Virus record (IMG/VR): IMGVR_UViG_3300049203_000083
Span: 1 to 35,317 of that record
Length of the DNA: 35,317 nucleotides
From: a virus
Reading direction: 5' to 3' (one strand)
This document shows, piece by piece, positions 13,210-35,317 of the stretch. Positions within the stretch are counted from its first letter, which is position 1, and every line of letters starts with the position of its first letter. A model generated the notes under the pieces. It ran no database searches, was not told the origin of the DNA, and saw only the letters and a program-made list of their open reading frames with translations. Position numbers and translations under genes: made by a program.

Positions 13210-13497
13210 TTACTCACCCTGGCGTTTTTCGAGGTTACCCCAGCAGTCCTTGCACCGATACTCGGCGTGCAGGGCCTGGATCGCCTCGTGCATGGCGTCC
13301 ACACTGAGCCGGGCCCAGTCGGGCAGCTCGCGCTCCATCGGCTCGAAGCGCTCCAGATCGGCGTTCCACAAGAGGGGCGGCATGGGCAACACCGAGTAGA
13401 TGCGCACCAGCTGGTCCAGGTAGGGCTGGATGGCCCGCAGATACTGCTGGTGCAGGTCCGCCTGCTGCGCGAGGGTCAGCGGCCGCGGGGCGATCAT
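13210..13497 (-). CDS. Small protein in operon with the XRE regulator, unknown function
   Basis: A 95-residue protein: MIAPRPLTLAQQADLHQQYLRAIQPYLDQLVRIY, then a Pro-rich turn LPMPPLLWNADLERFEPMERELPDWARLSVDAMHEAIQALHAEY and a C-terminal CKDCWGN. The lone CxxC could bind metal only as a dimer. Its ATG overlaps the XRE stop by four bases, so it is the second gene of the regulator operon. Small proteins in this place in temperate phages are often anti-repressors or replication accessory factors; nothing in the sequence decides between them. Confidence 0.65.
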   Translation of the reverse strand: MIAPRPLTLAQQADLHQQYLRAIQPYLDQLVRIYSVLPMPPLLWNADLERFEPMERELPDWARLSVDAMHEAIQALHAEYRCKDCWGNLEKRQGE

Positions 13498-13700
13498 CGC
13501 AGCCCCGCCGCGCGGCGCGCTTGGCGCTGCTGCACCAGCCCGTGCTCGATGCGCTGGATGGTGTCGAGCATCACATCCTGGGTGTAACCGGACTTGATCC
13601 GGCGCAGCGTGCGCAGGTTCAGGCCCGTGTCGCGGGCCAGTTGCGAGAGGCTGACGTTGGGCTTGGCGAGCATGCCCCGTAGGGTTTCGATGTCTTTCAT
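13494..13700 (-). CDS. Cro-like XRE-family regulator
   Basis: A 68-residue DNA-binding protein consisting of little more than a helix-turn-helix: VSLSQLARDTGLNLRTLRRIKSGYTQDVMLDTIQRIEHGL. LARDTGLNLRTLRRI is the turn and recognition helix. It lacks the C-terminal protease-like domain of CI repressors. A perfect eight-base dyad (13710-13731) ends ten bases before its ATG, so it is very probably autoregulated. The same half-sites recur at three other promoters. It is the best candidate for the protein that binds them. If the TATACT at 13713-13708 is its -10, the message would be almost leaderless. Confidence 0.82.
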   Translation of the reverse strand: MKDIETLRGMLAKPNVSLSQLARDTGLNLRTLRRIKSGYTQDVMLDTIQRIEHGLVQQRQARRAAGLR

Positions 13701-13709
13701 GCCGCACAG

Positions 13710-13731
13710 TATAGGGCATGACGGCCCTATA
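13710..13731 (-). promoter_or_regulatory. Operator O1 over the XRE start (TAGGG-N8-CCCTA)
   Basis: TATAGGGC and GCCCTATA form a perfect eight-base inverted repeat with a six-base centre; its core is TAGGG-N8-CCCTA (13712-13729). On the minus strand the right half runs into TATACT, a good -10 box for the XRE gene, but the matching -35 is poor. The site ends ten bases from the XRE ATG, so occupancy should block that promoter. Confidence 0.8.
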
Positions 13732-13761
13732 CTCTTGTAGGAAATTTTCTCGACTTGGGTG

Positions 13762-13790
13762 TTGACACTAGGGTTTGTGTGCCCTACAGT
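13762..13790 (+). promoter_or_regulatory. Early rightward promoter with embedded operator O2
   Basis: A consensus -35 TTGACA (13762-13767), a 17-base spacer and -10 TACAGT (13785-13790). The spacer holds TAGGG-TTTGTGTG-CCCTA (13769-13786), the same operator as at O1, with its last TA forming the start of the -10. A bound repressor would cover both boxes. It faces away from the XRE gene and should drive the micro-proteins and genes from 13821 onward. Confidence 0.88.
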
Positions 13791-14535: not shown

Positions 14536-14563
14536 AAAAAGAAAGGCCCCGACAAGCGGGGCC
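14536..14563 (-). terminator. Hairpin oriented as a minus-strand terminator
   Basis: GGCCCC (14545-14550) and GGGGCC (14558-14563) form a GC-only stem with a seven-base loop. On the minus strand it is followed by TTTCTTTTT, the layout of an intrinsic terminator. A second stem, GTCCGCC/GGCGGAC (14512-14535), lies directly beside it. On the plus strand, the direction of all nearby genes, no T-run follows. It may block antisense read-through or simply shape the mRNA before the autotransporter gene. Confidence 0.55.
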
Positions 14564-14592: not shown

Positions 14593-15219
14593 ATGAAGCG
14601 TTTGATTCACTGTCTCGTTCTCGTTGCAGCTGCAACCACCTGCGTCGCGGCCCTCGCCGGCAACGACAGCCCGGGCAACTGCGGCAACGGCTCGGGCAGC
14701 GGGAATGCCTGCCTGCCGGGTGTGCCAGGGCCTGTCGGCCCGATGGGACCGCAAGGCCCTCAGGGCATCCCGGGCGAGAGCATCAAGGGTGACAAGGGCG
14801 ATCCTGGCGAAGCAGGGCGCGATGGCGTGGACGGCAAAGACGGCGAGAGCATCACGGGCGCGGCCGGCAAGGACGCACCGCAAGACGCCGTGACCGCCCA
14901 GCAGATGGACGGCGCCGTGGGCACCCTGGCCGCGTCGACCAACGCACAGGTGGCCAACCTGCGCCAGCAGCTCAACGACGTGTCCAAGGCGGCCTACGCC
15001 GGCACGGCCGCCGCCCTGGCGCTGCAGATGCCGGCTCTCAACCCGCACAAGCCGGACGCCCTGACCATGCGCCTGGGCGTGGGCTCCTACAAGGGCCAGA
15101 GCGCCGTGGGCATCAGCTTTCGCCGCGGCAACAAGCTAGGCGACTGGTCGGTGTCTGGCGGCGTCTCGGGCTCATCGCAAGGCGCCGGCGTCGCGCTCGG
15201 TGTCGAGCATTCGTTCTAA
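14593..15219 (+). CDS. Trimeric autotransporter with collagen-like stalk and YadA-type anchor
   Basis: A 208-residue predicted outer-membrane adhesin. Residues 1-22 are a signal peptide (basic start, LIHCLVLVAAATT core, Ala-x-Ala end). Residues 43-84 are a collagen-like run of Gly-x-Y triplets (GPVGPMGPQGPQG and on) with one interruption. Residues 100-135 form a coiled coil (LAASTNAQVANLRQQL). Residues 135-208 match the YadA C-terminal beta-barrel anchor: AYAGTAAALALQMP, LGVGSYKGQSAVGISF, WSVSGGVSG, and a final aromatic residue (HSF). Three copies would build one barrel and display a short collagen rod on the host surface. It has an AGAGGA ribosome site. Such a gene in a phage early operon suggests host surface modification or blocking of competing phages; this is inference. 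Confidence 0.85.
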   Translation: MKRLIHCLVLVAAATTCVAALAGNDSPGNCGNGSGSGNACLPGVPGPVGPMGPQGPQGIPGESIKGDKGDPGEAGRDGVDGKDGESITGAAGKDAPQDAVTAQQMDGAVGTLAASTNAQVANLRQQLNDVSKAAYAGTAAALALQMPALNPHKPDALTMRLGVGSYKGQSAVGISFRRGNKLGDWSVSGGVSGSSQGAGVALGVEHSF

Positions 15220-15226
15220 GCCCGTG

Positions 15227-15394
15227 ATGACCCCTCAAGAGATTGAAGCGCGCGTCCAGGTGATCAAGCGCCTGGCACTGGACGCCAAGCCCGACGCGCT
15301 GGTGTGCATCGTGCGCCAGTGCATCGACCTGCAGCTCAAGCTCTTGAGCGAACACAAGACCGCGGCACGGCCGCAGGAAGGAAAGCAAGCATGA
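15227..15394 (+). CDS. 55-residue helical protein, unknown function
   Basis: MTPQEIEARVQVIKRLALDAKPDALVCIVRQCIDLQLKLLSE is almost wholly helical with a basic tail. The ATG at 15227 is preferred over a GTG at 15200 that would overlap the autotransporter gene. The ribosome site is weak. Its stop overlaps the next ATG (ATGA), suggesting coupling. No homologue recognised. Confidence 0.55.
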   Translation: MTPQEIEARVQVIKRLALDAKPDALVCIVRQCIDLQLKLLSEHKTAARPQEGKQA

Positions 15395-16672: not shown

Positions 16673-16845
16673 AGCAAGCCGCCGCCATCAACCTCGCGCT
16701 GATGCGCGGGGCTGGCCGAGGCGAGTGGGGCGACCCGATGCTGGGGCAGAGCCTGGGCACCAAGCCCAAGGCCCAGCCGCCGCGCGTGATCGTCCCGGGC
16801 AAGAGCAACAACCGCGCACAGCGCAGGAGCAAGAAAAATGGCTGA
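16669..16845 (+). CDS. 58-residue basic protein, unknown function
   Basis: Starts MKQAAAINLALMRGAGRGEWGDPMLG and ends with a strongly basic tail (NNRAQRRSKKNG), likely to bind nucleic acid or be disordered. Its ATG overlaps the previous stop by four bases, and its last eight bases overlap the DUF2800 start. Both overlaps support translation. No family recognised. Confidence 0.6.
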   Translation: MKQAAAINLALMRGAGRGEWGDPMLGQSLGTKPKAQPPRVIVPGKSNNRAQRRSKKNG

Positions 16846-18142
16846 CGCACACGCCAAAAGCTACGGCGCGAGCAGCAGCGCCACCTGGATGGCCTGCGCC
16901 GGCTCGGTGGCCCTGTCCGAGGGCAAGCCCGGCTCGTCCAGCAAGTACAGCCGTGAAGGCACCGCGGCCCACGCCCTGGGCGAAATGTGCCTGCGCGACG
17001 GCAGCGACTGCGCCAGCCACATCGGCGAGCGCATCGCCGTGGAGCACGAGACCATCGAGGTGGACGAGGACATGGCGCGCCATGTCCAGGAGTACGTGGA
17101 CCTGGTGCGGGGCCTGCGCGACACGCTGGGCGCCACGCTGCTGGTGGAGCAGAAGCTCAAGTACGGCCCGCTGATCGGCATCGAGGACCCGGACAGCGGA
17201 TGGGGCACCGGCGACGTAGTGTTGCTGGCCGGCACCGAGATCATCGTGATTGACCTCAAGTACGGCCGCGGTGAGCAAGTCGAAGCTGAAGGCAACACCC
17301 AGCTGCAGCTCTATGCGCTGGGCGCATGGGACGAATACAAGGATTACGGCGACTTCGAGTCGGTGCGCGTGATGATTTGCCAGCCGCGCAACGGTGGTAC
17401 GAGCGAGTGGACCACCAGCGTGGACGACCTGCTGGCGTTCGCGGTTGAAGCCAAGATTGCCGTGAGCAAGGCCGAGCAGGCGCGCGACTGCGAGAACCGG
17501 GACACGATGTGGGAGGCCGCTTACCTGAACCCAGGCACCAAGCAGTGCCGGTGGTGCAAGGCGAAGGCCACCTGCCCGGAACTGCGCAACGTGGCGCTGG
17601 GCACGGTGTTCGACAACACGCCGGCGACACCGGACGACTTTGACGCCTACACCGAGAAGGAAGCCAGCTTTGATGCCAGCGCCATCCTGGAAGAACGCAA
17701 GACCGACCCAGACTGGCTCGCCGCCTGCATGGCCAAGGCCGACCTGATCGAGGATTGGCTGAAGGCCATCCGCGCCGAGACGGAGCGGCGCCTGCTGGCC
17801 GGCGAGCCGGTGGACGGGTTCAAGCTCGTGCGCGGCAAGCAGGGCAACCGCGCCTGGTCCAGCGAGGACGAGGCCGAGGCGATGCTGAAGTCCTTCCGCA
17901 TGAAGAAGGACGACATGTACGACCTGAAGCTGATCAGCCCAACGACGGCCGAGAAGCGCCTGGCCAAAGAGTCGCCGCGCCAGTGGAAGAAGGCGCAGGA
18001 CCTCATCACCCGAAGCGAGGGCAAGGTGCATGTGGCACCGGCCAACGACCCGCGCGACGCCTACACACCGCAGGCGAGCGCTGACGAATTCGACACCATC
18101 CCGGCGTCGGACAACCCCGTGGGCTCTGACGAGTTCGCATGA
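16838..18142 (+). CDS. DUF2800 family, RecB-like nuclease
   Basis: A 434-residue protein of the phage DUF2800 family with PD-(D/E)xK nuclease features. GTAAHALGE (residues 41-49) holds the first conserved His. GTGDVVLL supplies D126, IIVIDLKYG supplies D139 and K141, and QLQLYALG (155-162) is the typical RecB-like final motif. Cysteines near residues 224-246 (CRWCKAKATC) suggest an iron-sulfur or zinc site, as in Cas4/AddB-like nucleases. The C-terminal part is helical. In many phages it sits, as here, beside DUF2815 and a family A polymerase, implying DNA-end processing in replication or recombination. All presumed catalytic residues are present. Confidence 0.88.
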   Translation: MADAHAKSYGASSSATWMACAGSVALSEGKPGSSSKYSREGTAAHALGEMCLRDGSDCASHIGERIAVEHETIEVDEDMARHVQEYVDLVRGLRDTLGATLLVEQKLKYGPLIGIEDPDSGWGTGDVVLLAGTEIIVIDLKYGRGEQVEAEGNTQLQLYALGAWDEYKDYGDFESVRVMICQPRNGGTSEWTTSVDDLLAFAVEAKIAVSKAEQARDCENRDTMWEAAYLNPGTKQCRWCKAKATCPELRNVALGTVFDNTPATPDDFDAYTEKEASFDASAILEERKTDPDWLAACMAKADLIEDWLKAIRAETERRLLAGEPVDGFKLVRGKQGNRAWSSEDEAEAMLKSFRMKKDDMYDLKLISPTTAEKRLAKESPRQWKKAQDLITRSEGKVHVAPANDPRDAYTPQASADEFDTIPASDNPVGSDEFA

Positions 18143-18943: not shown

Positions 18944-18958
18944 ACAAAAAGCAAGAGC

Positions 18959-19501
18959 ATGAATATGAAAAACGAAAACTGGAAAGACATCCCGGGCTAT
19001 GAGGGCCGCTATCAGGCCAGCGACTTGGGGCGCGTGCGGTCGGTTGATCGCATGGCCACCTACGTAGGCCGATGGGGTGTGACGCAGCGAAAGCATCGCG
19101 GGCGAATCCTCAAAACACAGCCGCTCAACGGCTATCGAACCTGTCACATTTCCGACGAGACGGGGCGCCAGCTAATACTGGTGCATCGCGCCGTGGCATT
19201 AGCTTTTCTTGGGGAGGGCATCGAAGTCAACCACAAAGACAAGAACCGCGCGAACAATTGCGCCAGCAACTTGGAGTGGGTGACTCGCTTGGAAAACATG
19301 CAGCACGCAGTGCAAACCGGCAGCGCGCTGGGCCGCCGCTATGCGGTGGTTGGAACCCCTCTTGCAGGAGGCACTGAAGTACGCTTCGAAAGCCAACAGG
19401 CCGCCGAATATCACTTCAGAGGACGCAACACTTCAGCAGTGCATAACGCGCTCATGGGTAAATGCCAAAGCGCTTACGGCTATGTCTGGAGCCGCGCGTG
19501 A
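18959..19501 (+). CDS. HNH homing endonuclease with NUMOD4 motif
   Basis: A 180-residue protein. The N-terminus is a NUMOD4 motif (WKDIPGYEGRYQASDLGRVRS, residues 7-27), typical of phage homing endonucleases. The HNH_3 core follows: LVHRAVALAFLGEGIEVNHKDKNRANNCASNLEWVT, with NHxD and the later N of the metal site. The C-terminal part would bind the target site. The ATG at 18959 lies 15 bases after the tRNA-like element, with GCAAGAG as ribosome site. The stop overlaps the polymerase GTG by four bases. It lies between the SSB and polymerase genes and has lower GC than the DUF2800 gene, consistent with insertion. Confidence 0.9.
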   Translation: MNMKNENWKDIPGYEGRYQASDLGRVRSVDRMATYVGRWGVTQRKHRGRILKTQPLNGYRTCHISDETGRQLILVHRAVALAFLGEGIEVNHKDKNRANNCASNLEWVTRLENMQHAVQTGSALGRRYAVVGTPLAGGTEVRFESQQAAEYHFRGRNTSAVHNALMGKCQSAYGYVWSRA

Positions 19502-27131: not shown

Positions 27132-29087
27132 CTAGTTGTCCTGCACAACCTTGCGGCCACCAACGCCGCCGCCGTCCTGAAAGGTCCCTGTCAGGTTGCC
27201 GCGCATGTCGTTGTCGTAGACCGAGTAATTGATGGTGAGCACGTTGTCCACGTGCACGCCGTACTTCTGGGTGTTGATCTTGGTCACGGCGTCGGTGCCG
27301 TTCTGCGTGGCGCCGATGCGGTTGTCGCCGATCAGGATGCCGTCGGCGCCGCCGAACACCAGAATGCCGCTGTAGGTGTTCGGTGTCAGCTGCCCGTTGC
27401 CGGTGATGACCGAGCCGAACACCGAGCACTCTTCACAACCCACGTCGAACAGGATGCCTTCCAGGCCGTTGTCGATGACCGACCCGTTGCGCCAGGAAAA
27501 CACCTTCGTGTTCTTGGTGTAGAGCCCCCGGCCGCCGGGGTACGCGCCGATCCAGCTGTTGCACCAGTAGATGCGCATCATCGGGTTGTTGGTGCCGTCG
27601 AAATAGACGGCAGGCCCTGCACTCGCCGGGCCGCCGGCGCCGTCAATGATCACCTGATCGAAGAACAGGTTGGCGCAATAGCTGCGGCTGGCCGACGGCT
27701 GGCCGATGACGCCGTTCTGGTAGCCGTGCACCTGCACATGTGAAAGGAAAATGCCGTCGCCCGAGATGAGGCGGAACCCTGCGCCGGTGTTGGTGTTGTA
27801 CGCCTGCGAGCGGATGCGCTCGAAGGTGATGTTGCCGTGCTGCTGCGTCGGCGGAACGGCTGACGACACGTCCACCGTGATCATGTCGTTCTTGAGGCCG
27901 CGCACCAGAATGTCGGCCGCGCCGCACTGGTCGCAGCCGGTGCTGAACAGGGCGAAGTTATAGCCGTTGTAAACGTCCAGGCGGCGCAGGTTCACAAATC
28001 CGTTCGTGAACGCGAAGATGTAGCCGCCCGTCGATGCGTCATGCACCAAGTGGCCCACCTCCAGGTCCGACACATTGATGGACCCGCCGTTCGCGTTGCC
28101 GGTGAACAGGTCGCCCGAGTTGGCCGCCAGCATGAGCTTCGAAGAGGGACCGTCGCCGCGGATGTCCAGGCGCGCATTGGCGCTCAGGCCGGACCACGTC
28201 AGGCCGACAGCCATGTAGGTGCGCCCGCCCGGCAGGTACAGCGCGCCCGAGCCGAGCGCCGCGATGTAGTTCAGGGCCCGCTGGATGGCCAGCGAATCGT
28301 TCGTCACACCGTCGCCGACCGCGCCGAAGTCCAGCACGCTGACCTGCTCCACCAACTTGCTGTAGGTGGAACGGCCTACCGAGTCGGCAGCGTTGAGCTT
28401 GTAGCCGACATAGGACGCACCCTTTGCCGTGTCGGTGGTGCTGGCCAGGCCCGCCACCCGTTCGCCGACTGTGGCGCCCGGGTAGGCCAGCGCCGTGCTG
28501 AAGCCCACCATGCCGGCGCCGCGCGTGCCCAGCGTGCTGTCGGCCAGCAGGCCCTGCAGCACCATCGAGTCGGTGCCCGCCTCGGCGTTCTCCAGGCCCA
28601 GCAGGTCGGTGCGCCAGCGAATGAATTTGCCGGCGCTCGGTGCAGGGAAGATCAGGCTGACCGTCGTACCCACTGCGGCCTGCAGCGTGCGGCCTGCGAT
28701 TTCCGCGAGCTGCTGCACCTGGATGGTCAGCCGGTCGAGCGCGTTCTCAAACACCTGCGGCAAGAACCGGCCGGTGTTGGTGATGTCCGTTGGCTGCGAG
28801 TAGGGCAGGTCGCCAATGGCCGTCAGCGTCGCGCCGACGGGCAGGATGGGCGTGGGGCCGATGAACAGGGGATAGGTGATCGAACCGCCGGGGTTGGCGT
28901 CCTGGTCGGGGTTCAGCAGAACGCTGTAATCCGAATTCAGCACCAGCGTGACGGGCACCCCGTCGGCGCCGGTGTAGACCACCTCCAGGTCGTCCGCCGT
29001 GAACACTTTGAAGTTGAAAGGAAACAGCGTCGTGACGCCGTTGCCCGCGTAGGGTCCCGCTCGTCGTGGGGTCGCGGAAACGGTCAT
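27132..29087 (-). CDS. Tailspike/tail fibre with pectate-lyase-like beta helix
   Basis: A 651-residue receptor-binding protein. Residues 1-100 match the T7-like tail-fibre head-binding region: GPYAGNGVTTLFPFNFKVFTADDLEVV, then NSDYSVLLNPDQDANPGGSITYP. A coiled-coil segment follows (ENALDRLTIQVQQLAEIAGRTLQ). From about residue 250 (VSVLDFGAVGDGVTNDSLAIQRAL) a right-handed parallel beta helix of the pectate-lyase type extends to the C-terminus, with regular N/G turns (NGSVIDNGLEGILFDVG, then ITGNGQLTPNTYSGILVFGG). Such spikes bind and often degrade surface polysaccharide. The ATG overlaps the ejection-protein stop (ATGA). No variable repeat or reverse transcriptase of the BPP-1 type was found. 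Confidence 0.88.
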   Translation of the reverse strand: MTVSATPRRAGPYAGNGVTTLFPFNFKVFTADDLEVVYTGADGVPVTLVLNSDYSVLLNPDQDANPGGSITYPLFIGPTPILPVGATLTAIGDLPYSQPTDITNTGRFLPQVFENALDRLTIQVQQLAEIAGRTLQAAVGTTVSLIFPAPSAGKFIRWRTDLLGLENAEAGTDSMVLQGLLADSTLGTRGAGMVGFSTALAYPGATVGERVAGLASTTDTAKGASYVGYKLNAADSVGRSTYSKLVEQVSVLDFGAVGDGVTNDSLAIQRALNYIAALGSGALYLPGGRTYMAVGLTWSGLSANARLDIRGDGPSSKLMLAANSGDLFTGNANGGSINVSDLEVGHLVHDASTGGYIFAFTNGFVNLRRLDVYNGYNFALFSTGCDQCGAADILVRGLKNDMITVDVSSAVPPTQQHGNITFERIRSQAYNTNTGAGFRLISGDGIFLSHVQVHGYQNGVIGQPSASRSYCANLFFDQVIIDGAGGPASAGPAVYFDGTNNPMMRIYWCNSWIGAYPGGRGLYTKNTKVFSWRNGSVIDNGLEGILFDVGCEECSVFGSVITGNGQLTPNTYSGILVFGGADGILIGDNRIGATQNGTDAVTKINTQKYGVHVDNVLTINYSVYDNDMRGNLTGTFQDGGGVGGRKVVQDN

Positions 29088-32000
29088 CGTTTGCTTTCCG
29101 GGCTTGGTGTTCCTGTGACAAGACCGCGCGCCGCATCCGCAGCGCTGGTCGGCGCGATGCGATTTTCGGACACCCCTAGGGTGTAGCCTAAGGGTCGTGC
29201 GATGGCGGTGGCCGGCAGGCCGACAGTGATCGCCAGCAGCGTGGCCAGGTCGCGCACCGCCTTGCGGGAATCCCCGCCGTTGAAGGCCGCTTCATAGATC
29301 GAGCGCGGCGCTTGCGTGGCGCTCTCCACCATGCTGATGGCGGGGCTGGTGCTGATGCGGTCGTCGTAAGGCTTGTCGTTGGTGGACGCCACCACCGCCG
29401 TGGCGGTCTGACCCACCACCGGCACCATGGCCAGGGCGCCCTTCACGTTGGACAGCAGCAGCGTGGCCCACAGCCAGTCATCGATGGTGTCGCCGTCCTT
29501 GTCCTCGTCGTCGGGCCCGCCCTTGAAGGCTTGGCTGATCGTCTCGGCCACGATGTTGGGCACCAGAAAGCCGAAGGCGAAGATATACAGGCCGCGCCCC
29601 ATGCCCTTGCGCAGGCCCAGGCTGTGCATCATCTTGGCGAATTCGCCCTGCATCAGGTTGGCCTGCATGTTGAAGTAGCCGGCGAACTGCGTGAACAGGC
29701 GCACGAAGCTGTTGCCTGTCTCGATGCGGCTCACGTCCTCGGGCAGCGTGGAGCCCTGCGTTTCCCGAATGGTCGAGTCGGCCAAGCGCACCGCGTCGGC
29801 GTCGCTGTGCCCAGCCTCCAGTGCCTGGTTGTAGGCGCCGGTCCAGATGATGGGACTCATCACGTTGTCCACCGCCGACTGCAGGAAATAGGTGTGCTGG
29901 GCCGTCCAGTTCACCGCCTTGCCGTACACGCTCGGGTTCAGCAGGATTTCATTAATGGCGTTTTCCATCTTGCCCGTCTCGTTGGACAGGCGCTGGTCCA
30001 TGTAGGTGCTGCTGGCAGCCACCGTGCGCGTCATCTGCCGCGGCGCGATGGTGTACTGCGCCATGGCGTCCATCAGGTACTTGGGCCGCACCTTCAGCGC
30101 CGCGAGCGAAAAGCCGGTGAGCTGCTGCACCGTGTTGCTGACGTTAGCGAACATCGCCGCCATGCCGGCGCGCTGGCGCAGCAGGCTGAAACCGCGCATC
30201 AGGTTGTTGTCTCCCGGCACCTTAGCCTCTACCGTCTGCCGTGCAGCGCGATTCAGCCACGGAGTGAGCAGCCCGTCGTAGGCCTGCGGGTCGATCCGGT
30301 GCAGCGGCGTGCTGACACCCGGCGCCGAGAGGATGCGGCGCACGTCGCGCACGGGCTGCTCGAGGTGCGAGAACAGCAGCACCTTGTCCAGGTGCGTGGC
30401 CAGGGTGCGCAGGTCCAGGAGCAGCGGCCGGTTGTACTCCACGCGCGCCTTGGTGAAGCCCTTGGCCGTGGATGGGAAGGCGTAGGCCAGCGTGCTGTTC
30501 TCGTCCTCCTGGAGCTTGCGGGTGGCTGCGTCCTTGACCACCTCGGGATCGGCCATGGCCGGCACGTAGCCGCCGCGGTAGGTACCGAACGGCGTCGTGA
30601 ATTCGTTGGCCGTCACCTCGGCGAAGTAGTGGCCGAAGACATCGCGGTGCGCCTTCTGCGCCAGCGGTTTGGTGCTCTCCAACAGGTCCCACACGCCTTG
30701 GGCAAAGTCGTAGTCCGCCTTCGTGAGCGTACCGGCGTCGATCATGCGCTGGATGAACAGGTCCCAGTTGCGCGTATCCAGCGTGCCGTCTGCGTTCTCG
30801 GTCGCCCACTTGCGCCCCAGCAGCAGCTTGCGTTTGTTGCTCTCGTTGCCGGTGTGCAGGATGGCGTGCAGGATTTCGGCCTTGCCGCTGCCGCCCTTGG
30901 AGAAGCCGAACGTATAGCCCAGCTCGGGCGCCTCGATGCGCTGCTTGCCCAGTTGGAGCGTGTCCAGCAGCGCCTTGTACTGCTTGATCACCTTGGCCTT
31001 GTCAGCGCGGTAGCGGTCGGCGGCCTCCTTGACCGGCTGCCAGATATAGCGCCGGAACGCGCCGATGTCCTCGCCGTCCTTGACGCCCACCCACGTTTCC
31101 ACGCGGCGCAGCGCAGCGCCGAGGGTCTGTGCGCGGCTGCGCCAGCGCTCGGCGTCCGTCACGGCGCGGCCTTCGCCCGGGATGGTGGCGGGAATGCCGA
31201 TTTCCACCATGCGCTCGGTCAGCTCGCCCTGCACCTGCTCGCGGTCCATCAGCTTGCCGTCAATCTCCACCTGGCGCGTGCGCTTGGCCAGGAACCACAG
31301 GCTGTGGATTTCCTCGGCCAGGCCGCGAAACTCTTCCACCGTCAGCTCGCCCGCCGGCTTGGCGCCGGCTACCAGCGCCGCAGTGCGCTCGGCGATGATG
31401 GCGTGCATGTCGGGGTCGTTCTTGGCCAGCGTGTCGATGTAGCTGGTGGCGCTCTCGCCCTTGGTGCCGATGCCGTATTCGGCGAGGACTGCGCGCGCCG
31501 CCTGGACGATGCCAAAGTCGCGCGTCTTGCTCACCTCTTCGGCGTTACCCTTGAGCACGCGCTTGAAGAATTCATTCTCCTTGCGCACCTCGTCCTGCGC
31601 CGCGAAGGCTTCTTTGGCGGCGTAGTTGTTCACGAGCTGGTTGCGCTTGTGCATCGCCGCCTCGGCGGTGTTGCCCAGCGTCTCCACCGCCAGCCGGGCG
31701 CTGCGCGCTTCGGCCGCTGTGTACTGCTTGGGCCGCAGGTTCTTGAGCTGGATGCGCGCGATGACCTGGGTGGCGTAGTCCTTGGCGGCGCGCGCCATCA
31801 CGTCCACCGTGTTGCGGCGCGTGCCGTAGATTTCGTTCGGGCTCTCGCCGCGCACGCGCGTGGCCTTGGTGAGCGCGGCCAGCTCGGCGGCAATCACCCG
31901 GGCGCGCAGCTCGTTGTGCACCGCCTCGTCGGCTGCGCGGTTGAGCGCTGCCGGGCTGGTGATGTCGCCATATTCCTCCAGCATGCGCTGATCGGTCATG

Positions 32001-35000
32001 CCCTCGATCACCACGTCGGGCGCCTGGGCGCGCGCCAGCTCCTGGATCATCGCGTCGCCCGAGGCGTAGCCGAACATTTCGGCCACGATGTCCGGGTGCA
32101 TGCCGCGGTTCTCGCTGGTCATGCCGTGCGCCGAGAGGATGTCATAGGCCGCAGGGTCGGCCTCCTTCACCAGCGACGTGCGCAGCTTGCCCTTGTCCTG
32201 CTCGGTGTCGATGTCCTCCACGGCGGTCAGGCCGGGCGTGACCTGCTCGCCGCCCTGCGGCTTGCCGGTGAGGAAATTCCAGGCGCGGTAAACCGGCTGG
32301 TCCATCACCTCGGCGCGCACCTGCGCCTCGATGGCGTTGCGCTGGGCATCGGCCTGCGCCTGCGCGGCCTTCAGCGCCTTGCTGCGCGCGCCGGACAGCC
32401 ACTTCATATCCTTGAACAGCCGCTCGTCCAGCTGGCCCTGCGCCGACGCCGTGGCGGCTGCGCCCAGGGACTGATAGGCGGTGTATTCCTCCGGCGTCAT
32501 GCCGGCCTGCTCAGGGGTCTGGAACAGTGGCCCCATGCCGCGTGCCGCCTGCGTTGCCGTGATCGCGGCGTCACTGGCCAGCATGCGGTCCATCACGGCG
32601 CGCACGTCGTTGTCCAGCTTGCTGTTCAGGCTGGTGAGCGTCTGGTAGACCGACAGCAGCCAGGAGCGGAAGCGCTGGAACACGCCGGCCAGTTCCTGGC
32701 TGGGGGCTTGACCCTCACCCACGTACTTCTCGAAGGACCGGGCGAACTGCTCGTGATGCTCGCGCCGCTCGTCCGTGCTCATCGCCAGCCAGGTGGTGAG
32801 CGCCGACTGGTCGGGGGTGCCGGTGATGCCAAACCACGTCAGCAGCCGGTTGAAGTCGGCCAGGATTTGCTGTTCGCCTTCGGTGGCCTGGTCACCCTTC
32901 GCAGCGATGCGCGCGGCCATGTCGGCCTGCACCTCCAGGAAGAAGTGCCCCGCCTCGTGAATGAAGGTGCTCAAATCCGCGCCCTCCAGCAGGGCGATGA
33001 CGCTCGGTGCCGCGGTGATGTCGGGGCTGAACGAGAGGGTGCCGCGTGCGCGCTGCTCCAGTGTCTGCTGCTCGCCCAAACTGTCGTTGTCCAGCACCAC
33101 CAACGCGGGGATGCTGGTTTTGCCAAGCTCGTGCAGCGCCGAGAGGCGGTGCCCGCCCTCAAGCACGTAGGCGCCTTCATTGTCGATAACGACAATGAGC
33201 GGGTTTATTTCGCCCGATTCGGCGATGGCCGCAGCCAGGCGCGCTACGCGCTCGCGCTCGCTTGCGGAGTTGAAATTCCCTTTTGTCGAAGGGTCCGCAA
33301 ACGCCGACATCGGCACTTCTCGCACACCTTCCAGCACGGTGTAGTCATCGAGCGACGCAGAGATTGACCCCATGTTCGGCACCTTCTCGCGCACCTCCAG
33401 GCCGTCCACAGCACCCTTTGCCGCCGGGTATGCCTCGGCTTCTTGCGCAGGCCCTTGCTGGTATTCGCTCGTCGGCGTAATCGCCCCTGCACCCACCACG
33501 CCCTGCGACTGCAGCGCGGACACCATGCCGGCGCCCGCCTCGGTCTGCGCGCGCCCGGGGGCGATGCTGTAGCCGGCCTCCTGCGCTGCGCGGTACATCG
33601 CCGAGGCAAGGCCCTTGCGCTGGAACTGCGGGGCCACGCGCGCCAGCTCGGCGCGCAGCGTGCCGTCTTCGTCCACGCTGAAGTCCACCATGCCGCGCCG
33701 GTTGCCGTCGGCAGTGCGCGCCTCCACCAGCACCTGGGGTGTGTCGCGGTTGGCGCCGGTGAACGTGCGCGTGATCGTCAGGTCGTAGGCGGTGCCGTCC
33801 TTGTCGGTGGCCTGGGTCTGGATGAGGCGGTCGGGGAGGCTGCTTTGTTCAAGGGTTTGCTGCGGTGGAAAGTTTGCGTTGAACGTTTCCGCCTCTTCGT
33901 CGGAAATAGCGCGCGGCAGCCCTTCGGGGACTAGGTTGTCTTTCCCATCCAGTTTGTAGCCTGCAAGAATCCAGCCCTCAGGATCGCCGCGCAATAGGCG
34001 CCCCCGGCGGACCACAGACAAGTGAATCGTGGACTTGTTTTTGCCCTTGCCGAGAGCATCCTGGCGTGCCAAAAAACGCTGCGTCACGCCGTTGTGCTCA
34101 ATCACCAGTGGCGTAGGTTTGCCCAGGGATACGTTGGGTGTAGCGCTCCATGCTTCCCTGATTTTTGTTTCAGCAGGGCCTTGGTCCACCGTCTGCGCCC
34201 CGCTGCGCTGCGGCGTCTGCGCGCGCACCTGCAGCGCGTAGCGGTCCATGAAGTCGGACAACGGGACGCCGGCGCGCGCCGCCTGCGTGGCGTAGAAGTT
34301 GCCCAGCAGCGTGGCGTAGGCCTTGTTCACCTCGGGGCGGAACTTGCCGGCCAGGTCCAGCTCGGCTTGGAAGTGGTCGCGCACGGTCTGCACCTCGGCC
34401 ATGAACTGGGTGCGCTGCTCTTGTCCGGTCATCGCGCTGTCTACCGCCTTGCGGATTTCCTCGTCCTGCTGCTTGAGGTAGGTCTTGGCCTCCTGGCGGC
34501 TCATCGCGTCGGGCGCTGCGCGCAGGTGATCAATCAGGGGCTGCGTCACCTCGGTGGGCGCACTGAGCAGCTCCGACACCGGCAGGCGGATGTCGGCGCC
34601 CGGCATGAACGTGGCTTGGTTGAGCTGCTCCGCGACGCTGGGCGCGACGGCCTGCAGCGCCGCCATGCCGACGCCCGACTGGTTGAGCGTCTCCACCAGC
34701 GTCTGCGCGTCGATGTACAGCTCCGACGGGTTGCCGTTCTGCCCCTCGGCGAGCTGATCCACGAAGGCCTGGAACGTGGCCGGGGCGCGCTCGCGCAGCT
34801 TGCTCGCCTCCACCAGCTTGGCCAGTTCCTCCACGCGCACCGCGCTGGCTTCGGCCGCCGTGGCCTCCTGCATGCGCTCGCGCACCTGGCCAGCGGCCAT
34901 GGTCGCCACCTCGGTCGGCGCGCCGAAGAATTCGCCTGCGATTTCCGCGACGATGGCGCCGGGCTGAATCTCCTGGCCCGCTGCGATCTGACCGCCGGCT

Positions 35001-35317
35001 TCGCCCACGCCACCCAGCACGCCCTGCACGGGCGTCTGCACGGCCAGGTTGGCTACCTCGCGCGCCACGGGGCGCCCGGCCAGCGCACGAGCCGGCAGCA
35101 GGAGCTTTCCCGCCGCGCCACCACTGGCCGCGTCCACGGTGCCCACCACGGCAGCGTGCGCCATGGCGCCGGCCGCCACGCGCTGCATCAGCGCCGTGTC
35201 GGCCACAGCGGCCTGCAGCGCGGCCGGGTTGCCCACGTCCACGCCGGCCTGCGTCAGGCCCTCCACGATGCTGGCGCCGTAGTCCGTGGCGAACGAGCCG
35301 GCGCCCAGGGTGGCGGC
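29084..35317 (-). CDS. Giant ejection/internal virion protein with GNAT-, ParB- and HExxH-like domains (5' end missing)
   Basis: At least 2,077 residues; the frame is open to the right edge, so the true start lies outside. It should be ejected with the DNA and carry enzymatic functions. Counting from the GTG at 35266, a helical, Ala-rich region comes first. A low-GC insert follows (about residues 357-475), then a GNAT-like segment ([15 protein letters not shown], near 555), a ParB/sulfiredoxin-like domain (EGGHRLSAL, near 705) and a zinc-protease motif [11 protein letters not shown] (near 768). A long helical C-terminal half ends [13 protein letters not shown], as in other podovirus ejection proteins. 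Polyvalent architecture like this is known in phages, but the enzymatic targets are not. Confidence 0.87.

Follow-up and report, generated by a model that had tools for sequence, protein, structure and literature searches.

What kind of protein does a phage produce when it joins collagen-like repeats to an outer-membrane anchor, and what would such a protein do for the phage? This question is raised by a gene for a 208-aa protein in a 35.3-kb IMG/VR virus contig classed as linear, which was analysed over its whole length (35,317 nucleotides; hereafter the window). The gene and the segments of its product are as follows.

14593..15219, + strand: putative mini trimeric autotransporter gene, 208 aa, ATG start (ORF list, Pfam, PDB profile, monomer models and fold search)
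14593..14658, + strand: predicted signal peptide, residues 1-22, cleavage A-L-A / G (read from the sequence; hydropathy; A-F-A / GN in a jumbo-phage homologue)
14680..14712, + strand: distal tip segment with two cysteines, C30-x9-C40 (weak, loose likeness to the CGVGQxTNGC tip of relatives)
14719..14874, + strand: collagen-like stalk, residues 43-94, 7+7+2 Gly-X-Y triplets with the breaks IK and IT (Pfam and triplet count)
14884..15036, + strand: helical segment, residues 98-148, a putative coiled coil plus a linker into the barrel (predicted in both monomer models; heptad test marginal)
15040..15216, + strand: YadA-type anchor, residues 150-208, C-terminal F (PF03895; predicted strands; AtaA/Hia fold match)

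The N-terminus, MKRLIHCLVLVAAATTCVAALA/GND, reads as a basic n-region, a hydrophobic core (mean hydropathy 2.7) and an A-L-A motif. This tripartite, Sec-like arrangement bears out the signal peptide claimed in a preliminary description of the DNA; it is the export signal expected of a type Vc protein, and the jumbo-phage homologue has a similar site. The mature chain opens with a Gly/Asn/Ser-rich segment containing C30 and C40. As in type Vc proteins, a passenger lies between the signal peptide and the anchor, here a collagen-like and a helical stalk. The tip beyond this short stalk comprises ~20 residues, and neither the sequence, nor Pfam, nor the model revealed a head domain, a YadA head or another known binding domain in the passenger.

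Uninterrupted Gly-X-Y triplets occupy residues 43-63, 66-86 and 89-94 (7 + 7 + 2), separated at two points by two residues each. When the mature protein was shuffled 20,000 times, seven or more consecutive triplets turned up in 18 shuffles; the real protein has two such runs next to each other. The approximately 14 triplets described earlier were thus found again as two seven-triplet runs of a length unlikely by chance, followed by two further triplets. The match to the Pfam Collagen family (E=9.5e-5, 22.5 bits) lies below the curated cut-off of 27.2 bits for these 16 triplets with two breaks. Meanwhile, a helix was predicted at residues 102-149 in the full-length AlphaFold monomer and at residues 99-144 in the anchor-only model. 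The heptad signal of this segment was marginal (shuffle p=0.054), so that the short coiled coil proposed earlier stands as a predicted helix of marginal periodicity. We estimate that the 16 triplets and the helix would span about 14 + 8 nm, a fibre of about 20 nm overall.

The anchor was recognized by PF03895 (YadA_anchor) at 31 bits (E=2.7e-7; residues 150-208, profile positions 2-60 of 60), above the Pfam cut-off of 22.7 bits, and the last residue is F. Of the two families for which an HMM search had been proposed, YadA_anchor therefore exceeded its cut-off and Collagen fell short, and the anchor with a final aromatic residue was confirmed. A two-sequence profile of the last 111 residues, including the linker helix, matched AtaA 9vnj (6.5e-12) as well as Hia 3emo and 2gr7 in the PDB. 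The full-length AlphaFold monomer (pLDDT 37) contained the signal helix, the helix 102-149 and four strands (157-166, 169-178, 184-194 and 197-207). Because of this low pLDDT, it was dropped for the fold search, and an anchor-only monomer of the last 111 residues was modelled instead from an alignment of 11 sequences, ten of them phage relatives. This model showed a long helix and four strands at a mean pLDDT of 67.8. Its sole PDB matches at E<0.001 were four AtaA/Hia transmembrane-domain chains, the best with TM 0.81 (AtaA) and rmsd 1.9. At the same threshold, there were 16 viral structure matches, including the phiEco32 'agglutinating adhesin', YadA-like or adhesin-named proteins and some nameless ones. 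The C-terminus thus has the anchor of type Vc proteins by Pfam, PDB profile and fold, with four strands per chain predicted in the monomer models.

We conclude that the 208-aa protein is very probably a phage-encoded minimal trimeric autotransporter (type Vc secretion). That it is this and also resides on the outer-membrane surface of the host is, taken jointly, highly probable, in agreement with the host-surface placement suggested before; export, trimerisation and surface location would follow from what is known of the family.

The setting of the gene bears on whether the product could instead be a virion component. On the minus strand, the window encodes terminase, head-tail adaptor, major capsid protein, a 2060-aa protein of unknown family, a tail protein and lysis genes, while the plus-strand early block encodes an exonuclease, a Gp2.5-like annealing protein, DNA polymerase and helicase. 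The DNA polymerase shares ~50% identity with its counterparts in Bordetella phage BPP-1 and Burkholderia phage BcepC6B, and the early-block gene order is common to all three. By sequence, the source virus is a BPP-1/BcepC6B-like podovirus with the autotransporter gene in its replication/early block. There the gene sits among small early ORFs, in a series of tightly packed plus-strand genes that reaches the replication genes. The following features surround it.

13494..13697, - strand: small HTH regulator, Cro/repressor-like, 67 aa (phrog_9425 repressor)
13708..13733, no strand assigned: operator candidate, perfect 10-nt palindrome AGTATAGGGC-6-GCCCTATACT, beside the small divergent HTH gene
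13762..13790, + strand: sigma-70-like promoter TTGACA-17-TACAGT, likely early promoter of the operon (1 found vs 0.2 expected)
15227..15394, + strand: next small ORF, starting 7 nt past the autotransporter stop codon (sequence)
16838..18142, + strand: exonuclease gene of the same early block (phrog_69)

The promoter-like site, the palindrome, the divergent HTH gene and the packed genes make the early operon under operator control, as it was first described, plausible but unproven. We infer that the autotransporter gene is expressed early in infection. A strong terminator-like hairpin (14545-14563, minus strand) lies in the gap just 5' of the gene, between genes on the plus strand, and no Rfam match was found near the gene. 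Elsewhere in the window, an ORF at 18953-19501 (+) that resembles an HNH homing endonuclease by eye overlaps the start of the DNA polymerase ORF. The 2060-aa protein (29084-35266, minus strand; phrog_9880) contains a weak ParB-like stretch.

Some databases would name the product a tail fibre, in which collagen repeats are common, and several relatives are annotated 'tail protein'. A virion fibre would be expected to come from the structural block without a secretion signal. The present gene lies in the early block, outside the structural genes as do those of the relatives examined, and its product has a signal-peptide-like N-terminus and an outer-membrane barrel anchor. The same argument from position has been made for two Salmonella phages (PMC3728262). 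Because of the signal peptide, the anchor and the position, we rejected the tail fibre as the identity of the protein, and a role in the virion is extremely improbable. Pfam, the PDB profile and the anchor fold support the original reading, namely a minimal protein of the trimeric-autotransporter type that has a collagen-like stalk and a gene outside the structural block.

The protein had been proposed to act during infection or lysogeny, and in a lysogen it could change the cell surface by expression from the prophage. In both BPP-1 and BcepC6B, the HTH gene has a cI repressor gene next to it and the helicase gene is followed by an integrase gene; integrase was also found in 8 of the 12 structural relatives tested, and the autotransporter genes EibA and EibC occur in prophage records. 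However, no Phage_integrase (tyrosine type) and no Peptidase_S24 (cI) match was detected in the 35.3-kb record, which is probably incomplete yet covers the places where BPP-1 and BcepC6B have these genes. The break that gives the record its ends (1 and 35317) seems to lie between the genes for the capsid and the giant protein, and ~7 kb seem to be missing compared with the 42-kb genomes of those phages. These results suggest a lytic virus, within two limits: part of the genome is probably missing from the record, and the integrase search covered only the tyrosine type. The gene, moreover, is located in an early lytic operon, and virulent phages with a yadA homologue have been published (PMC3728262). 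Since neither a tyrosine integrase nor an S24 repressor was detected, action in lytic infection is likelier than lysogenic conversion, which we consider unlikely; the lysogeny half of the earlier proposal has lost ground accordingly.

The closest homologue of the 208-aa protein is encoded by jumbo-phage-sized contigs of 331 and 234 kb, IMGVR_UViG_3300047445_000186 (L083) and 3300046615_000261 (L082). It has the same layout and is 74% identical over the last 111 residues, but it is 285 aa long, with an extra proline/valine-rich insert and other collagen repeats, in an unrelated phage genome. The insert is a (PPVVV)n tandem array between tip and collagen (L083:9650-9720, plus strand). Its neighbours include genes for tRNA nucleotidyltransferase and for nucleotide metabolism. 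Of the 44 anchor codons that differ between this gene and that of the window, 36 are synonymous (dN 0.088, dS 1.2), while dN of the coil is 0.61. Between these phages of unrelated types, the anchor has thus been under strong purifying selection: it is selected for, while the outer part diverges.

Selection of this kind speaks against a host gene fragment acquired passively and without function in the phage, as do the intact state of the gene, its packing in an operon and its recurrence in many phage groups. Such an origin would fit the patchy distribution of the gene, the anchor homologues on Burkholderiales chromosomes and the GC content of the jumbo-phage gene (63%, against 54% for its locus), but overall we regard it as very unlikely. 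None of the 28 records sharing the capsid protein, i.e. the structural-module relatives, had a YadA anchor, so that the autotransporter gene appears to be accessory. One 43-kb contig (L207; capsid protein 65% identical) has only structural genes in common with the window; its missing autotransporter gene and integrase therefore say little about the early region. Larger autotransporters with homologous anchors were matched in 21 of 399 Burkholderiales genomes, and these chromosomal proteins are a plausible source of the phage anchor. A plasmid search returned one match, a Variovorax protein whose annotation mentions an extended signal peptide. The whole-protein search gave mostly unrelated collagen repeats, and a two-sequence profile found this anchor in none of the fetched loci; the diverse anchors of a 13-row alignment differed too much from one another for it to serve as a query in the collection scan.

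The first phage search reached phiEco32 gp119 through collagen, coil and part of the anchor only. The complete gp119 sequence begins with a signal-peptide-like stretch and the tip CGVGQSTNGC; 22 triplets and a helix follow, and then a YadA anchor, matched at E=4.5e-19. In a tblastn search, gp119 hit 103 phage records, in some cases (e.g. Mycobacterium phages) via collagen alone, and EibA and EibC were among the matches. We assembled 20 proteins, namely the window protein, L083, gp119, L264 and those of 16 diverse tblastn records: Salmonella FSL SP-076 and Munch, Cronobacter GAP32, Erwinia S6, Hena1, Yoloswag, RF1, Aeromonas LAh10, Yersinia phiR1-RT and P778, Pantoea AAM22, LIET2, Phynn, Proteus Privateer, Enterobacter phiT5282EW and SP-9-14. 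All 20 had YadA_anchor and a signal-peptide-like N-terminus (that of LIET2 starting at an internal methionine), eight had Collagen, and the passengers were variable. The neighbours of their genes were mostly dUTPase, ribonucleotide reductase, tRNA clusters and unknown small genes, and none of the phage YadA-anchor genes with annotated neighbours had virion genes on both sides. Phage-encoded trimeric autotransporters thus occur in podoviruses, T4-like myoviruses and jumbo phages under the names 'adhesin', 'tail protein' or 'hypothetical'. In public records (e.g. our H60, H62, H66, H94 and H95), the names 'tail protein' and 'tail fiber protein' are probably wrong.

The combination of collagen with an outer-membrane anchor, taken at first to be unusual in phages, is not: gp119 has the same architecture. 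The related phages in which the gene was to be sought gave a divided answer, absence from the 28 capsid-sharing relatives and presence in many other phage groups. The window protein is one more case of an existing, unstudied kind of phage protein and is not unique. In literature searched mostly without subscription papers, we found no functional study of phage-encoded trimeric autotransporters. Two virulent Salmonella phages were reported in 2013 to have yadA homologues away from tail genes (PMC3728262). In escape mutants of a T4-like Serratia phage, the deleted region contains a YadA-anchor ORF (PMC5449768), an indication that the phage can do without this gene under laboratory conditions.

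How would the protein act? The 208-aa chain would be produced at an early stage of lytic infection and leave the cytoplasm through Sec, and three chains would form one 12-stranded outer-membrane barrel (3 x 4 strands). The short coiled coil and a collagen triple helix would extend ~20 nm from the cell, bearing the two-cysteine N-terminus at the outer end. The protein would coat the surface of the infected cell and might hinder the adsorption of further virions, whether these belong to competitors or are progeny of the same phage that encounter infected cells and debris; it might also alter surface stickiness. Surface shielding in lytic infection is, in our tentative view, the most likely role, and the benefit to the phage is conjecture. 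Trimeric autotransporters usually serve in adhesion and autoagglutination. The fibre could accordingly stick infected cells together or to surfaces, so that hosts are near at burst and local spread is aided. Eib proteins of E. coli, two of which are among the phage records, mediate chain-like adherence and autoaggregation (PMC12511318). The short stalk with its ~20-residue tip, devoid of a YadA head or other known binding domain, fits this less well, and we see adhesion or aggregation as a possibility that ranks close behind shielding; no result here separates the two. If such fibres coat infected cells, lytic phages would have an overlooked means of controlling superinfection or cell aggregation.

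The tip may itself be a module. The CGVGQxTNGC motif just past the signal peptide also occurs in phage proteins with an unrelated C-terminus, for example relatives of Ralstonia phage RSL1 ORF070 and phrog_20531. Phage proteins with N-terminal GGCGVGQxTNGCG are encoded at L256:2863-3942 (+) and in L257-L259, L263, L265 and L267-L269, and in the tip proteins listed from L256-L269 the motif mostly follows directly on a signal-peptide-like stretch. Several of these have another C-terminal domain ('..TWTDxNC..'), RSL1 ORF070-like and assigned to phrog_20531 in the three tested. It is conceivable, although doubtful, that phages share an exported, disulfide-capable tip module on different surface scaffolds and that the window protein has a diverged copy. 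The scaffolds may be YadA-anchored collagen fibres (phiEco32, L083, L264) and the unrelated RSL1 ORF070-like C-terminal family, and the window tip CGNGSGSGNAC is at best a diverged copy of CGVGQxTNGC. If the link holds, the tip is portable and is probably the working part, rather than the anchor, displayed on infected cells. The idea that the motif is absent from bacteria was dropped, because the 399 Burkholderiales genomes (none with the motif) are too little sequence beside 15 viral stretches with it.

Among known systems, gp119 of phiEco32 ('agglutinating adhesin', ABY52920) and its Kuravirus relatives resemble the window protein in the signal-like N-terminus, two-cysteine tip, long Gly-X-Y stalk, helix and YadA anchor, and the gp119 gene likewise has a non-structural neighbourhood. 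They differ in that gp119 has its 22 triplets in one run, an anchor region just 26% identical, the tip CGVGQSTNGC instead of CGNGSGSGNAC, and E. coli as host. To our knowledge, the Eib proteins have no collagen stalk. Those of the E. coli prophages P-EibA and P-EibC are phage-borne trimeric autotransporters too, but they are prophage genes whose products are reported to bind immunoglobulin and to form chains (PMC12511318). The Salmonella phages FSL SP-058 and SP-076 share Collagen and a YadA anchor encoded away from the tail genes and are reported to be virulent (PMC3728262), while their collagen is longer (41 triplets in SP-076) and their tip another one. Finally, AtaA and Hia (9vnj, 3emo, 2gr7) share the fold and sequence of the anchor, but they are bacterial adhesins, and AtaA, with 3,630 residues (PMC4910087), is far longer than the phage protein.
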